From Pelagibacterales bacterium SAG-MED38 (GTDB lineage Bacteria; Pseudomonadota; Alphaproteobacteria; Pelagibacterales; Pelagibacteraceae): DNA of 46,239 nt. This document shows positions 35,037 to 40,464 of the stretch, in pieces (the first letter of the stretch is position 1; every line of letters starts with the position of its first letter). The notes under the pieces are model-generated. The model ran no database searches, was not told the DNA's origin, and saw only the letters and a list, made by a program, of their open reading frames with translations. The position numbers were made by a program, and so were the translations under genes. Where the stretch lies: assembly GCA_014653585.1 (NCBI GenBank), contig JACWEH010000007.1:1-46239 (forward strand), written 5' to 3'.

Positions 35037-37162
35037 AGATCTCTATTTTACTTCCTTTAAAAGAAAATTTTTCACCGTCTTATGCCGGTGCCGTTTCACT
35101 CTTTATCAATGACACTTTAAGGTTTAGTAAATTTAAAAAAGATATTACTGTTTTTGGACATACGAACTATGAAAAAAAATTTAATCAAAAATATTTCAAT
35201 ATTGATATTAAAAAAAAATTTTTTTCAAGCCAAAATAAAGAATATGTGAAAAAATTTATAGAAATAGAAAAAAAAAATAACTCACAAATTATAGAATTAC
35301 ATAATAGACCAATTTATTTAAAATACCTTTTAAATAATTTAAAAGAAAAAGATTATATTTTATATTTTCATAATGATCCTCTTACAATGTCTGGTTCAAA
35401 AAGTATTAAGGAAAGATCATTCTTATTAGATAACTGCTATAGAATAATCTTTAATAGCAACTGGTCTAAAAAAAGGTTCTTACAAAAAATGAAATCCGAT
35501 GCAATTAATAGTGAAAAATTAATTGTAATAAATCAATCAGCTGCGAAAAATAAAATTAATTTTAAAAATAAAAAAAAAATAATAACCTTTGTTGGAAAAC
35601 TCAATAGAGCAAAGGGTTATGATCTTTTTGGTAATGCAATAATAAAGATTCTTAAAAAATACAAAGATTGGTCTGCTTATGTTTTGGGCGATGAACCTAG
35701 AGATAAACTTAGTTTTAAACATAGTCGGTTGAAAAATTTTGGATTTAAAGAACATAATGAAGTTATAAAGATTTATAAAAAAACAAGTATAGCAGTTGTT
35801 TGCTCTAGATGGGAAGAACCCTTCGGTAGAACAAGTTTAGAGGCTTCAGCAAATGGTTGTGCGGTCATAATTAGTAATAGGGGGGGATTACCAGAAACAA
35901 TTACTAATGGTCGAATACTTAAAAACTTAACTATTAATGAAATTTATAAAAATATTGAAGATTTAATAAAAAATTCATCTATTAGAAAAAAAATTCAAAA
36001 ATTATCTTATAAAAACTTTTATTTATCTCATGAATACGTCTCTGAACAAATAGATAAAGTTAGAAATAATTTAATTAAAATAACCAAACCTTTTTTGTAC
36101 AATTCACAATCTAATTTAAGAATATTGCACATTACTAATTTTAATGAAAGGCATAATGGTAGACTTTTTTTTAATACAGGCAGAAGATTAAATAACGGTT
36201 TCATTAGACTTGGACATAGTGTTTTAGAGTTTAGCGACAGAGATATTGTAAGTAGAGGAAAATCCTTAAAAGATTTTTATGGTTCAGATACGCTTAACGA
36301 TAAGTTAATAAAAACTTGCTATCATTTTAAACCAGATCTAATAGTTTTAGGACATGCAGATATGATATCCAAAGATATTCTCTATAATCTTAAAAAAGAT
36401 TATTCTAATCTTAAAATTGCACAATGGTTTCTTGATCCATTGAACAAGAATGGTCCTGATTTCCAAAAAAATAAAAAAAGAATATTAGATAAATCTGATG
36501 TAATAGATTCAAATTTTTTAACTACAGCCCCTGATTCTTTGAGCTTTTTATCCAAAAAAAATTTAAATTATTTTATACCTAATCCCTCAGATAAATCGAT
36601 GGAAACACTCAATAATTTTAAAAAAGATTGCTCTAATGATGTATTCTTTGCATTGAGCCATGGTGTGCATAGGGGCCAATTAAAAAGTCGATCCTCTGAT
36701 GATAGAGAAAAATTTATAAAATCATTAATAAATAAATGTAAAAATGTTAGATTTGATATTTTTGGAATGAACAATATCCAACCAATTTGGGCTGATCAAT
36801 ATTTTAAGAATATATCTAATTCAAAAATGGGACTCAATTTAAGTAGAGGAACACCAATAAAATATTATAGTAGTGATAGAATTACTCAAATAATAGGCAA
36901 TGGTTTGGTCACATTAATAGATGAAAAAACTTGTTATGGTGATTTTTTTGATGACACAGAGATGGTTTTTTATAAGAATATTTCAGATTTATCTTACAAA
37001 ATTGAAAAAATATCAGAAGATGAAAAGTTACGTAAGAAAATTGGACAAAAAGGTAAAGCTAAATACATGAAATATTTTAATTCAACAATTGTAGCTGATT
37101 TTATCATTAATAAGACCTATGGGATAAATAGTGCCAAAAAATACTTATGGCACAAACCATAA
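35033..37162 (+). CDS. Double-domain glycosyltransferase (GT4 plus CgeB-like)
   Basis: A 709-residue protein with two glycosyltransferase units. Residues 1 to about 345 form a GT4-type enzyme: VGKLNRAKGYDLF (about 184-196) and the E-x7-E site in WEEPFGRTSLEASANG (about 259-274). Residues about 362-700 look like a CgeB-type family 1 transferase (LRILHITNFNERHNGR, GRRLNNGFIRLGHSVLEF, late NLSRGTPIKYYSSDRI). Such enzymes build surface glycans; donor and acceptor are unknown. It overlaps the GIY-YIG gene by four bases and lies in the tRNA-Glu island. Confidence 0.85.
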   Translation: MKISILLPLKENFSPSYAGAVSLFINDTLRFSKFKKDITVFGHTNYEKKFNQKYFNIDIKKKFFSSQNKEYVKKFIEIEKKNNSQIIELHNRPIYLKYLLNNLKEKDYILYFHNDPLTMSGSKSIKERSFLLDNCYRIIFNSNWSKKRFLQKMKSDAINSEKLIVINQSAAKNKINFKNKKKIITFVGKLNRAKGYDLFGNAIIKILKKYKDWSAYVLGDEPRDKLSFKHSRLKNFGFKEHNEVIKIYKKTSIAVVCSRWEEPFGRTSLEASANGCAVIISNRGGLPETITNGRILKNLTINEIYKNIEDLIKNSSIRKKIQKLSYKNFYLSHEYVSEQIDKVRNNLIKITKPFLYNSQSNLRILHITNFNERHNGRLFFNTGRRLNNGFIRLGHSVLEFSDRDIVSRGKSLKDFYGSDTLNDKLIKTCYHFKPDLIVLGHADMISKDILYNLKKDYSNLKIAQWFLDPLNKNGPDFQKNKKRILDKSDVIDSNFLTTAPDSLSFLSKKNLNYFIPNPSDKSMETLNNFKKDCSNDVFFALSHGVHRGQLKSRSSDDREKFIKSLINKCKNVRFDIFGMNNIQPIWADQYFKNISNSKMGLNLSRGTPIKYYSSDRITQIIGNGLVTLIDEKTCYGDFFDDTEMVFYKNISDLSYKIEKISEDEKLRKKIGQKGKAKYMKYFNSTIVADFIINKTYGINSAKKYLWHKP

Positions 37163-37163
37163 A

Positions 37164-37997
37164 ATGATTTCCATAGTAATTCCAACTTATAATAATTTAG
37201 ATTATCTAAAACTCTGTTTAAAAAGTTTAATAAAAAATTCTTCTTTTAATCATGAAATAATAATTCATATTAATGACGGTTCAGATGGCACAACAGATTT
37301 TATTAAAGCTAACAATTACAAACATACAAGCTCAGACGATAATATTGGCCTTTGCACATCAATAAACAAAGCTACAAAATTAGTGTCAAAACAATATATT
37401 CTTTATAGTCATGATGATATGTATTTTTGTCCTAATTGGGATAAAGTGTTGTTAGATGAGGTTAAAAACTTAAATCATGATAATTTCTATCTATCAGGCA
37501 CAATGATAGAACCTAATTCTGGTCATATAGTTTCTGATTTTGGAGTTGATTTAGATACTTTTAATGAAGATGAGTTATTATCTAAATATAAAGACATTAA
37601 TTTTTACGATCATCAAGGCACTCATTTCGCTCCACATTTGGTCTCAAAAAAATTGTGGGATAAAGTAGGTGGATTTAGTGAAGAATTTAACCCTGGTATA
37701 GGTTCTGATCCAGACTTTAATATGAAATTATGGAAAGAAGGTGTGAGAATATTTAAGGGTTTAAATGATTTTAAAGTTTATCATTTTGGTTCTTTAACAA
37801 CTAGAAAAAAAATAAATTTTATTCAAAATAAAGGGGATAAAATATTTTTAAAAAAATGGGGTTTTTCTATTAAATTTTTTAAGAAATATTATTTAAAATC
37901 CAAAACAAAATATGAAGGTCCTTTACATGAACCAAATAAAAATTTTAATTATTTCTTAGATTTACTAATTTGTAAAATTAGATTATTAATTACCTAG
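37164..37997 (+). CDS. Family 2 glycosyltransferase
   Basis: A GT-A fold transferase of 277 residues. The frame is open from a GTG at 37131, but the ATG at 37164, one base after the preceding stop, puts the classic start MISIVIPTYNNLDYLKLCLK at the N terminus, so I chose it. The donor site shows NDGSDGTTD (about 37-45) and a DxD-like YSHDDMYF (about 85-92). A later Asp/His region is GSDPDFNMKLWKEG. It most likely adds a sugar to a surface glycan together with its neighbours. Confidence 0.85.
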   Translation: MISIVIPTYNNLDYLKLCLKSLIKNSSFNHEIIIHINDGSDGTTDFIKANNYKHTSSDDNIGLCTSINKATKLVSKQYILYSHDDMYFCPNWDKVLLDEVKNLNHDNFYLSGTMIEPNSGHIVSDFGVDLDTFNEDELLSKYKDINFYDHQGTHFAPHLVSKKLWDKVGGFSEEFNPGIGSDPDFNMKLWKEGVRIFKGLNDFKVYHFGSLTTRKKINFIQNKGDKIFLKKWGFSIKFFKKYYLKSKTKYEGPLHEPNKNFNYFLDLLICKIRLLIT

Positions 37998-38003
37998 ATT
38001 TTT

Positions 38004-38699
38004 ATGTCTAAATTGATTGATAAATTAAGTATTTTAAAAAAAAAAGTTTATTCACAAAAAAAAAGTTACTCATTTGGTGGATGCGATCTACTAATTGATT
38101 ATATTTTTAAATCAAAAAAAAATGGTTTTTACTTAGATGTTGGGTGTCAACACCCGGTTTCCAACAATAATACATATTTACTTTACAGAAGAGGTTGGAG
38201 TGGAATCAACATTGATTTAGACCCAAAAAATATAAGATTATTTGATTTGGAAAGATCAAATGATACGAATATTTGCAAATGTATATCTTCTGATAATTCT
38301 GAAAAAGAATTATATTTTTTTCACCCAGGCTCACCAATTAACTCATTAGAAAGAAAAACCATAAAAAATAAATCAAATTTCATATTGAAAAAGATAAAAA
38401 CAATCACACTTAATTCAATTTTAGAGGAGCATAAAATACGAGATATAGACTATTTTAATCTTGATGTTGAAGGCCATGAACTTGATATATTAAAAAACTT
38501 TGATATTAAAAATTATAAACCAAGAGTTATCTCTGTAGAATTTATTGATTATCAAATGAAAGAATTGGAGTTCATAAATAATAATATTAATCGAGTATTG
38601 CAATCAGACTTATATAGATATTTTATTTCCAATGATTATCATTTTGTTAATTGGTCTCATGCTGATTTAATTTTTGTACATAAAGATTTCAGAAATTAG
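38004..38699 (+). CDS. FkbM-family methyltransferase
   Basis: A SAM-dependent methyltransferase of 231 residues. The SAM-binding motif FYLDVGCQHPVSNNNTYLLY lies at about 46-65, GINIDLDPKNIRLF at about 71-84, and the FkbM signature YFNLDVEGHELDILKNFD at about 150-167. FkbM enzymes O-methylate sugars or other hydroxyls, so it probably decorates the glycan made by the preceding two transferases. Its last four bases overlap the convergent recombinase gene. Confidence 0.85.
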   Translation: MSKLIDKLSILKKKVYSQKKSYSFGGCDLLIDYIFKSKKNGFYLDVGCQHPVSNNNTYLLYRRGWSGINIDLDPKNIRLFDLERSNDTNICKCISSDNSEKELYFFHPGSPINSLERKTIKNKSNFILKKIKTITLNSILEEHKIRDIDYFNLDVEGHELDILKNFDIKNYKPRVISVEFIDYQMKELEFINNNINRVLQSDLYRYFISNDYHFVNWSHADLIFVHKDFRN

Positions 38700-39649
38700 A
38701 TCTTTATTTTATTCAAAGCATTATTTTTGAATATATTTGCTTCTCTTATATATCTTCTGACCATTTGTGTTGATTTATGTCCTGTCATAGCCATTATACT
38801 TCGCTCATCAGCACCTGACTCTGCGGCTACTGTTGCAAAACCAGATCTCAAACTATGACCTGCAAAATTTTTATTATCTATACCTGCTAACTTTAAATAT
38901 TCTTTTATTAACAAAACTACAGATTGGTCTGTTAATCTTTTATTTGTTAATGATAAACCTTTAGAAAATCTCCTAAAAATTGGTCCTGATTTAATATCAG
39001 AAACTTCTAACCATTTTTTTAGATTTGCAACAGGACAATAAATTTCATTAGCGAAGTAGGGCAGTCCCTTAATCATTCCTTCACCAAATTGATCAGTTTT
39101 TGATCTTTTAATAATGATTTTGAGACCTTCAGGAACAAATTCTAAATCCTCGTAATCTATTGAAATAAGTTCCGTTCTTCTAAAACCACCTCCAAAGCCA
39201 ATTAAAATTATTGATTTGTCTCTTAATTTTTTGATTTCCTCAGTTTTAAATTCATTTATTACATTAATAATCAATTTTAAATGATTGATTAATATAGGTT
39301 TTTTACCTTTTTGAATACTTCCTATCACCCTTCTTATACCCATCAAATTCTCAACTATCATTGGATGTTTGGTATCTAGATAATGACCTTTAAGCTTATG
39401 AACCATACTTATTGATACTAATCTTCGTCTTAAAGTACTTATTTTTGAGTTTTTAGAGAGGTGAGTTAGGTATAAAGAAACTACCTTTGGCTCTGTTGGT
39501 AATGGATTAAACCCATGTTTCGCACAAAAAACACCGAAATCTTTGAAGTCAGATTTATAAGCTCTTAAAGTGTTATTTGATTTAGAACTTTTTAGGTTAG
39601 TTAATGTTGCTTCATGAAGCGATTTTAGATCTGTAGTAAGCTCTGTCAT
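38696..39649 (-). CDS. Tyrosine recombinase / integrase
   Basis: A 317-residue site-specific recombinase. The N-terminal SAM-like core-binding domain spans about 10-110 (NNTLRAYKSDFKDFGVFC). The catalytic domain has all expected residues: Arg157 (GFRRTELI), Lys184 (SKTD), His265 and Arg268 (HSLRSG), His291 (GHKS) and Tyr300 (RRYIRE). It is intact, so may be active. It lies at the far end of the tRNA-Glu region and points into it. A perfect 12-base inverted repeat with a 7-base centre lies just upstream of its start. It is not clearly XerC or XerD. Confidence 0.92.
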   Translation of the reverse strand: MTELTTDLKSLHEATLTNLKSSKSNNTLRAYKSDFKDFGVFCAKHGFNPLPTEPKVVSLYLTHLSKNSKISTLRRRLVSISMVHKLKGHYLDTKHPMIVENLMGIRRVIGSIQKGKKPILINHLKLIINVINEFKTEEIKKLRDKSIILIGFGGGFRRTELISIDYEDLEFVPEGLKIIIKRSKTDQFGEGMIKGLPYFANEIYCPVANLKKWLEVSDIKSGPIFRRFSKGLSLTNKRLTDQSVVLLIKEYLKLAGIDNKNFAGHSLRSGFATVAAESGADERSIMAMTGHKSTQMVRRYIREANIFKNNALNKIKI

Positions 39650-39654
39650 ATAAT

Positions 39655-39685
39655 TACTATTGATAACAATTAATTATCAATAGTA
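39655..39685. repeat. 12-7-12 perfect inverted repeat next to the recombinase gene
   Basis: The arms TACTATTGATAA (39655-39666) and TTATCAATAGTA (39674-39685) are exact reverse complements around the centre CAATTAA. Two 11-13-base arms with a 6-8-base centre is the layout of a tyrosine-recombinase core site (dif, loxP, FRT). It begins six bases upstream of the recombinase ATG, so it could be the crossover site, an operator for the recombinase gene, or both. Inner bases ATAA...TTAT also resemble dif, though dif has a 6-base centre. Confidence 0.6.
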
Positions 39686-39730: not shown

Positions 39731-39907
39731 ATGGGTTCAATTGATGGTGAAATTCCTGCTGTATGGTTTTTGATAAGCTCAATTGGTTTTATTATTTTGA
39801 GTTTCATTCAATTTAGAAATACAGGAAAAAGTATTAATACAATTTTTTTAAGCATAATGGCCATTTTGTTTTTATTTAGCTATTTTATATTGCTTTTTAA
39901 AACCTGA
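39731..39907 (+). CDS. Small membrane protein of unknown function
   Basis: A 58-residue protein from the ATG at 39731 (an upstream in-frame codon at 39695 would add 12 residues, but these look like untranslated AT-rich DNA). It has two membrane segments, about residues 10-26 and 37-55, separated by a short polar loop FRNTGKSIN. I do not recognise the family. It is divergent from the recombinase and may belong to the same mobile region. Confidence 0.55.
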   Translation: MGSIDGEIPAVWFLISSIGFIILSFIQFRNTGKSINTIFLSIMAILFLFSYFILLFKT

Positions 39908-40002
39908 TTTATCCCCACTATTCACAAGGAAATGAGAAATATAATAGAATCACCTAAAAAGTGATACATTTTAAAATCAGTACTTGTTAAGTTAATTACG
40001 AA

Positions 40003-40183
40003 TTAAGAGGCAACTCTTAACTGGCCGATTGGAGAAAATCCGAGAGGTACAATTCCAAGGGGCAGAAAGCTTCACAAAGCATCGCTGAACATGTGGAGCG
40101 GGAGGCACGGCGGTAGCGCATCAACGACGTGCCAAAACAACTGTTCTTTGCACCCTTAAAAGTGCAAGGAAACAGTGGTTTTT
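40003..40183 (+). ncRNA. GC-rich structured RNA candidate with own terminator
   Basis: About 120 of these bases (roughly 40020-40135) are near 50 percent GC in a genome near 30 percent, the usual mark of a structured RNA in AT-rich DNA. Helices seen by eye: TTAAGAG (40003-40009) with CTCTTAA (40014-40020) around a GCAA tetraloop; GCTT/AAGC (40069-40080); CGCT/AGCG (40083-40086/40097-40100); GGCACG/CGTGCC (40104-40109/40128-40133) enclosing GCG/CGC; and a 14-bp terminator. TTGGA (40029-40033) can pair with TCCAA (40054-40058) or its GGA with TCC (40039-40041), two mutually exclusive folds. No known family was recognised (not RNase P, SRP or 6S). It may be a free RNA or a leader of the next gene. 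Confidence 0.55.
40140..40183 (+). terminator. Strong intrinsic terminator
   Basis: Bases 40140-40153 pair with 40162-40176 in a 14-bp helix with a single bulged A (40172) and one G-T pair. The loop is CCTTAAAA, and GG plus five T follow (40179-40183). It is the clearest hairpin-plus-T terminator seen in the window. It ends six bases before the ATG at 40189, so transcripts from upstream would stop before the MGMT-family gene unless it is bypassed. Confidence 0.75.
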
Positions 40184-40188
40184 CACTA

Positions 40189-40464
40189 ATGATACTCAAA
40201 GGAACTAAATTTCAATTAAAAGTTTGGAAATATCTTAGAACCATCCCTAAAGGTAAGGTAAAAACCTACAAACAAGTAGCTATTAGCATAAAAAGCCCAA
40301 GATCAGCTCGTGCTGTCGCTAACGCTTGCGCTAAAAACCCATATGCACCAAAAATACCCTGTCATAGAGTGATTAGATCAGATGGAGGTCTTGGAGGATA
40401 CTCAGGAAGGGGTGGAATCAAGCAAAAGCTTAAATTACTTAGATCTGAAAAAGCAGCTATTTAG
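40189..40464 (+). CDS. MGMT-family DNA-binding domain protein (alkyltransferase)
   Basis: The protein is the C-terminal domain of O6-alkylguanine-DNA alkyltransferases. The acceptor Cys motif PCHRVIRSDGGLGGYSG is present, so it can in principle accept alkyl groups, unlike Trp/Ala-type ATL proteins. The helix-turn-helix ARAVANACAKNP precedes it. The frame is open from a GTG at 40129, but bases 40129-40183 form the terminator hairpin, so I chose the ATG at 40189 (MILKGTKFQLKVWKYLRTIP), which begins at the usual domain start. At 91 residues it lacks the N-terminal domain of Ogt. Confidence 0.85.
   Translation: MILKGTKFQLKVWKYLRTIPKGKVKTYKQVAISIKSPRSARAVANACAKNPYAPKIPCHRVIRSDGGLGGYSGRGGIKQKLKLLRSEKAAI

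Follow-up and report, generated by a model that had tools for sequence, protein, structure and literature searches.

The window analysed here, a stretch of 46,239 nt from Pelagibacterales bacterium SAG-MED38 (contig JACWEH010000007.1), was found to contain a short GC-rich block between a tyrosine recombinase gene and an MGMT-family gene. The locus is organized as follows:

38696-39649, minus strand: gene for an Xer-like tyrosine recombinase
39656-39685: dif-like inverted repeat separating the recombinase gene from the small ORF; its pattern occurs once in the window
39731-39907, plus strand: neighbouring small ORF, membrane-like by eye, without Pfam match (cluster of 74 members in the loci read)
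39949-39967, plus strand: conserved box, here the dyad ATCAC-N7-GTGAT plus a following AC, with its centre some 43 bases ahead of the predicted start; a likely regulator site or promoter part
39985-39993, plus strand: possible extended -10 element TGtTAAGTT, read from the sequence and weak in AT-rich DNA
39996-40135, plus strand: IMES-2 core with helices P1-P4 (cmscan, RF02035)
40000-40184, plus strand: predicted whole IMES-2 transcript of about 185 nt, its 5′ end placed from the -10-like sequence and its 3′ end from the hairpin and T-run
40141-40183, plus strand: P5, a 3′ hairpin with T-run, likely an intrinsic terminator, lying beyond the Rfam model and recognized by folding of loci
40189-40464, plus strand: MGMT-family gene, a neighbour outside the RNA gene (PF01035; TIGR00589, ogt superfamily, above cut-off)

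Beside the recombinase gene, genes for a glycosyltransferase and an FkbM methyltransferase were seen at 37131-38699 of the window. Relatives carry different genes on this side, which resembles the border of a variable surface-sugar island.

A cmscan search showed a match to IMES-2 (RF02035) at 39996-40135 on the plus strand, scoring 141.2 bits compared to an Rfam gathering cut-off of 54.7. The likeness is that of a full-length match with nested helices: the alignment covered model positions 1-141 of 141 and all four consensus hairpins, with one deletion in the P4 loop. The RNA block is a copy of IMES-2, a small RNA of SAR11 that was already catalogued, so the structure is real and the family is not new. 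An earlier note on this DNA had recognised no known family and had itself named an Rfam hit as a ground for giving up its reading; on this point it was overturned by the match. Its observation that the block is far more GC-rich than the surroundings was confirmed, with 48.6% GC in 40000-40184 compared to 27.8% window-wide, and the 16 of 46,054 segments of 185 bases that were equally GC-rich all started at 39994-40021 and were the block itself. The block strand folded at -66.2 kcal/mol (z -4.68), and none of 200 dinucleotide shuffles folded as low.

IMES-2 reportedly dates from a 2009 description based on marine sequences, in which it figured as an abundant small RNA, and to our knowledge it is catalogued without known function. 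IMES-1 (RF02034), a member of the same naming series, is a marine RNA of unknown function. It was found in none of 39 Pelagibacterales genomes (18 IMES-2 positives and 21 negatives), in a search where the controls were also without match, so that its absence is not proven. In a passage of the giant squid genome paper an IMES-2 match is called possible environmental contamination. IMES-2 is absent from the available parts of PMC2704228, on P. ubique RNAs, and the term IMES does not occur in the available passages of PMC2864571 and PMC5069720.

The earlier note had counted at least five helices, one closed by a GCAA tetraloop, and this held: besides the 3′ hairpin, P1, P2, P2b, P3 and P4 were found. 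These helices and the loops discussed below lie on the plus strand:

40003-40009/40014-40020: P1 hairpin with GCAA loop (100% paired cells; 3 of 7 pairs changed on both sides)
40021-40033/40054-40065: P2 helix, which holds TTGGA/TCCAA (9 of 11 pairs changed on both sides)
40038-40041/40046-40049: P2b helix with GNRA cap (3 of 4 pairs changed on both sides)
40069-40076/40092-40099: P3 hairpin (8 of 8 pairs changed on both sides)
40104-40112/40125-40133: P4 hairpin (5 of 9 pairs changed on both sides)
40081-40086: P3 loop AUCGCU, one side of a proposed kissing contact (loop pairing and covariation)
40115-40120: P4 loop AGCGCA, the partner side of the proposed contact (loop pairing and covariation)

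Covariation was analysed in 47 sequences chosen for diversity from 102 rows, with exact duplicates left out and ends trimmed slightly differently. Base changes in this alignment tracked the helices. Changes on both sides were found in 31 of 45 pairs (six loop pairs counted in) compared to 19.3 in shuffles, none of 500 of which was as high, and 92% of cells were paired across the model pairs compared to 31-43% in slid controls. Two model pairs failed, one in P4 that was never standard (unpaired in 47 of 47 sequences) and one in P2 that was unpaired in 31 of 47. The comparison of relatives bore out the helices, and it divided the two competing pairings that the note had suggested. Each of the five pairs of TTGGA/TCCAA had changed on both sides in 7-19 of the 47 sequences, whereas the alternative GGA/TCC was paired in 46% of cells and covaried no more than the shuffles, 289 of 500 of which scored as high. 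As for variation at the margins of the family, P2b is capped by UUCG in the divergent copy L201, in place of the GNRA found in most other sequences, and the divergent copies L202, L203, and L205 have two extra bases in P1.

The window and 130 further loci were read for gene neighbourhood; they are no census of the positives, many having been taken for best or worst score. Three contexts were found. In 115 of the 131 loci a tyrosine recombinase gene lies upstream, usually followed by a small ORF, IMES-2 and mostly MGMT; the MGMT ORF cluster had 114 members among the 131. In 11 loci IMES-2 lies behind a gene that, from sequence features, we take to be MnmA, with a convergent gene 32-53 bases downstream. 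Four loci belong to a region presumed on the same grounds to be that of SelO; three of these are followed by a convergent gene at a distance of 50-52 bases, and the fourth, L201, has a same-strand gene 202 bases downstream. One locus, L133, on a truncated contig, stood outside the three contexts. Since the contexts differ and the next downstream gene is convergent in 14 of the 131 loci, the downstream gene is not constant.

The upstream box and the 3′ hairpin are kept across all three neighbourhoods. In every one of the 130 loci, the best local match to the box, approximately CAAC-N-A-N-AAAGTGATAC, fell 49-52 bases ahead of P1. A score of at least 11 of 15 was reached in 129 of the 130, in all three contexts, compared to 366 of 20,000 random 55-base stretches drawn from the same loci, true sites among them. 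When 18 genomes were scanned at no more than one mismatch, the box marked IMES-2 in 6 of 10 positive genomes; in total it occurred at 11 places in 10 of the 18 genomes, six at IMES-2 and five elsewhere, compared to four for the reversed control. Exact copies away from IMES-2 were present in two genomes (G138 and G030), and the five off-site copies, otherwise inspected by eye, showed no Rfam match. The symmetry of the box is not general, because a looser form of the dyad, found in 99 of 130 loci, was nearly missing from the MnmA context (1 of 11) and the SelO context (0 of 4). The upstream box is likely a regulator-binding site or a part of the promoter.

At the other end, a 14-bp hairpin with a T-run shortly before an ATG had been pointed out. 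Hairpin, T-run and ATG (at 40189) were all present, but the arms of P5 (40141-40153/40162-40175) form 13 bp with one bulged A, followed by T at 40179-40183. All 130 loci had a fold energy of -15 kcal/mol or less in the 68 nt downstream, compared to 35 of 2000 control windows, and a hairpin with a T-run of at least four was found in 115 of the 130 loci compared to 188 of 2000 controls. Such a T-run after P5 was missing in 5 of 11 MnmA-context and 10 of 114 recombinase-context loci. Folding was used in place of a stricter terminator detector, which recognized 11 of 130 loci compared to 12 of 2000 controls; a hairpin criterion of at least 10 bp alone was undiscriminating (130 of 130 loci compared to 1297 of 2000 controls).

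The structure line of RF02035, a model that ends before P5, has no loop-loop contact. At least four contiguous pairs between the P3 and P4 loops were kept in 129 of 130 sequences, with four in the window and three in the exception, L194. The loop pairs showed 12 double-change cells compared to a shuffled mean of 1.8, a number not reached in any of 500 shuffles, and a covariation score of 0.149 compared to 0.069 in shuffles (none of 500 as high). By other measures the signal was less distinct: the three loop pairs with double changes were equalled by 25 of 500 shuffles, the further loop pair types were not above shuffles (230 of 500 reached them), nine double-change cells were still left when the loops were slid by one column, two loop pairs were invariant and another paired in only 7 of 47 rows. 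The P3/P4 loop variants found included AGCGCU/AGCGC, AGCACU/AGUGCU, AGUACU/AGUACU, AGUGCU/AGCAC, and UCGCU/AGCGA. In 85 of 130 sequences the P3 loop is complementary to itself over its full length. This does not hold for the window type, where the pairing between P3 and P4 persists, so that P3-P4 seems to be the pairing under selection. Two carriers of double changes, G174 and G201, sit among unchanged relatives in separate parts of the MnmA-context clade on the GyrA tree; therefore at least two of the double changes look independent. The complementary letters of the two loops, apparently kept through double changes, point to a kissing contact within or between molecules.

The earlier note had left open whether the block is an attenuation leader or a stand-alone small RNA, and the evidence favours the latter. 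We consider IMES-2 very probably to be a self-contained RNA gene of this SAR11 bacterium, consisting of the box, a start, an RNA of about 185 nt and its own terminator, whose product works in trans; that the RNA is trans-acting is, taken by itself, slightly more probable still. IMES-2 would be transcribed from its own control region and end at its own terminator hairpin P5. Its P1-P4 fold would most likely be stabilized by pairing of the P3 loop with the P4 loop, and the folded molecule would act in trans as a protein-binding sponge or scaffold. Protein binding is a mode of action to which we would give slightly less than an even chance. It was favoured over simple antisense pairing because the fold is compact and the two loops, which covary, seem engaged with one another. 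Antisense action, in which the RNA would pair with mRNAs through its loops, is the main rival. A stand-alone transcription unit would suit it and parts of the loops are strongly conserved, but the letters of the P3 and P4 loops co-vary with each other, which pairing with mRNAs does not require, and we regard this alternative as rather unlikely.

The leader reading, that the RNA is a cis-acting attenuator or riboswitch-like element controlling MGMT through the terminator at 40141-40183, resembles known attenuation leaders and riboswitches in having a structured RNA and an intrinsic terminator before a gene. The terminator stands immediately before the MGMT gene, and in the recombinase context the gene order is kept, with the 114 MGMT ORF members mentioned above. 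IMES-2 differs from such leaders in having no fixed downstream gene and in an alternative pairing that is unsupported. Linkage to the same gene in unrelated contexts was not found, two of the three contexts being without MGMT next, nor was a conserved mutually exclusive pairing, GGA/TCC being the one alternative examined. The next gene is convergent in the 14 loci noted above, and MGMT is also present where the RNA is not. MGMT-family hits were found in 36 of 39 genomes (30 IMES-2-negative and 9 positive), the three misses all being negatives; among the 30 negatives, 11 had hits at 63-89% identity and another 16 at 45-51%, perhaps to another paralogue. A clean empty site was found in G013, the nearest relative of the window (96% GyrA identity), in which the recombinase gene, the small ORF and MGMT are kept and a unit of nearly 300 bases is absent. 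G040 shows the same order of recombinase, small ORF and MGMT without IMES-2; in G389 the arrangement is similar and again lacks the RNA, and the genome's own IMES-2 lies elsewhere, behind MnmA. On gene context, empty sites and lack of covariation, the attenuator was rejected as highly improbable, and with it the claim of an RNA leader for a DNA-alkyl repair gene. A side effect of IMES-2 on MGMT by read-through is possible in the recombinase-MGMT context, since in this context of 115 loci the two mostly run in the same direction and there is little room for a promoter of MGMT's own.

6S RNA (RF00013) was compared as a possible functional analogue; it had no match in the window, nor in any of the 39 Pelagibacterales genomes searched for IMES-1, compared to 5 of 14 control genomes matching. 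A polymerase-binding stand-in for 6S RNA in this lineage is nevertheless very doubtful, as 6S RNA folds into one long open-promoter mimic and IMES-2 into four separate hairpins, and 21 of those 39 genomes, like 197 of 397 in the order, were also without an IMES-2 match.

The dif-like inverted repeat beside the recombinase gene was analysed separately. A pattern built from the repeat and its relatives occurred once in the window, and the arms of the repeat change symmetrically between relatives. With up to two mismatches allowed, the 19-base core was found in 14 of the 15 genomes, all but G174, and exactly in nine; it occurred at 25 places in total, some of them weaker extras, compared to seven places in 6 of 15 genomes for the reversed control. 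A PF00589 match lay within 0.5 kb of the site in 14 of 14 genomes and was the sole PF00589 match in 11 of these. In G013 the cumulative GC skew, taken in 20 samples, reached its maximum in the sample with the site and then stayed on a broad plateau; in G011 the maximum fell in the sample next to the one with the site. The recombinase scored far below the cut-offs for XerC, XerD, and XerS. This arrangement looks like a single-recombinase dif system, of a kind not yet described in SAR11: a 2009 paper reports that P. ubique lacks a dif/Xer system (PMC2731167), and no report of such a system in SAR11 was found in the limited library of literature, partly in excerpts, that was searched.

Of 397 genomes in the order (that of G003), 200 gave a match to IMES-2, in a single copy each, under stricter filters by which weak matches may be lost; many of the assemblies consist of numerous contigs, so that some absences may be gaps. 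Incompleteness is no explanation for its absence in G013, G015, and G023, which lie on single genome-size contigs of 1.20, 1.32, and 1.46 Mb. A single copy was also found in each of the 10 genomes reached by the pattern. In a class-level sample, again under stricter filters, 3 of 385 genomes matched, all three within the Pelagibacterales set. A pattern scan of genome contigs gave 12 IMES-2 copies by model R1 among the at least 117 stretches listed, and, among the matches listed, all 12 were titled Pelagibacteraceae or Pelagibacterales, i.e., came from marine bacteria. In viral contigs, none of 15 stretches found with a single pattern was matched by the model, and divergent copies were found with model R1 in none of 39 negative genomes, in a run without positive control.

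A GyrA tree of 53 rows was built from a sample of 62 genomes, of which eight had no GyrA match; G041 and G342, with partial or other matches, were left out. The absence of IMES-2 required at least seven changes across supported branches, and the nine MnmA-context rows formed one supported clade. The GyrA of G309, read across a frame break, gave a very long branch, the placement of which was disregarded. The depth of the origin of IMES-2 is unsure because the tree was rooted at the midpoint with this long misread row included. Judged from this distribution, IMES-2 has moved place and been lost, or passed between lineages, several times.

We tentatively suggest that IMES-2 is a dispensable, regulator-switched and trans-acting RNA, whose working form may be locked by a P3-P4 helix between look-alike loops, possibly formed between molecules to give an RNA dimer. 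According to the abstract of PMC13198564, SAR11 bacteria outnumber all other heterotrophs in the marine plankton and have comparatively few transcriptional regulators. IMES-2 can now be treated as a single gene under a control region of its own, which roughly half of the order's sampled genomes carry at varied places, and has been given a testable tertiary contact (P3-P4); RNA control of a DNA-alkyl repair gene has been removed as a wrong lead. The near relative G013, which lacks IMES-2 at 96% GyrA identity, offers a natural comparison for finding the function, and if the RNA is indeed dispensable and switched by a regulator, pairs of close relatives with and without IMES-2 would make its function directly testable.
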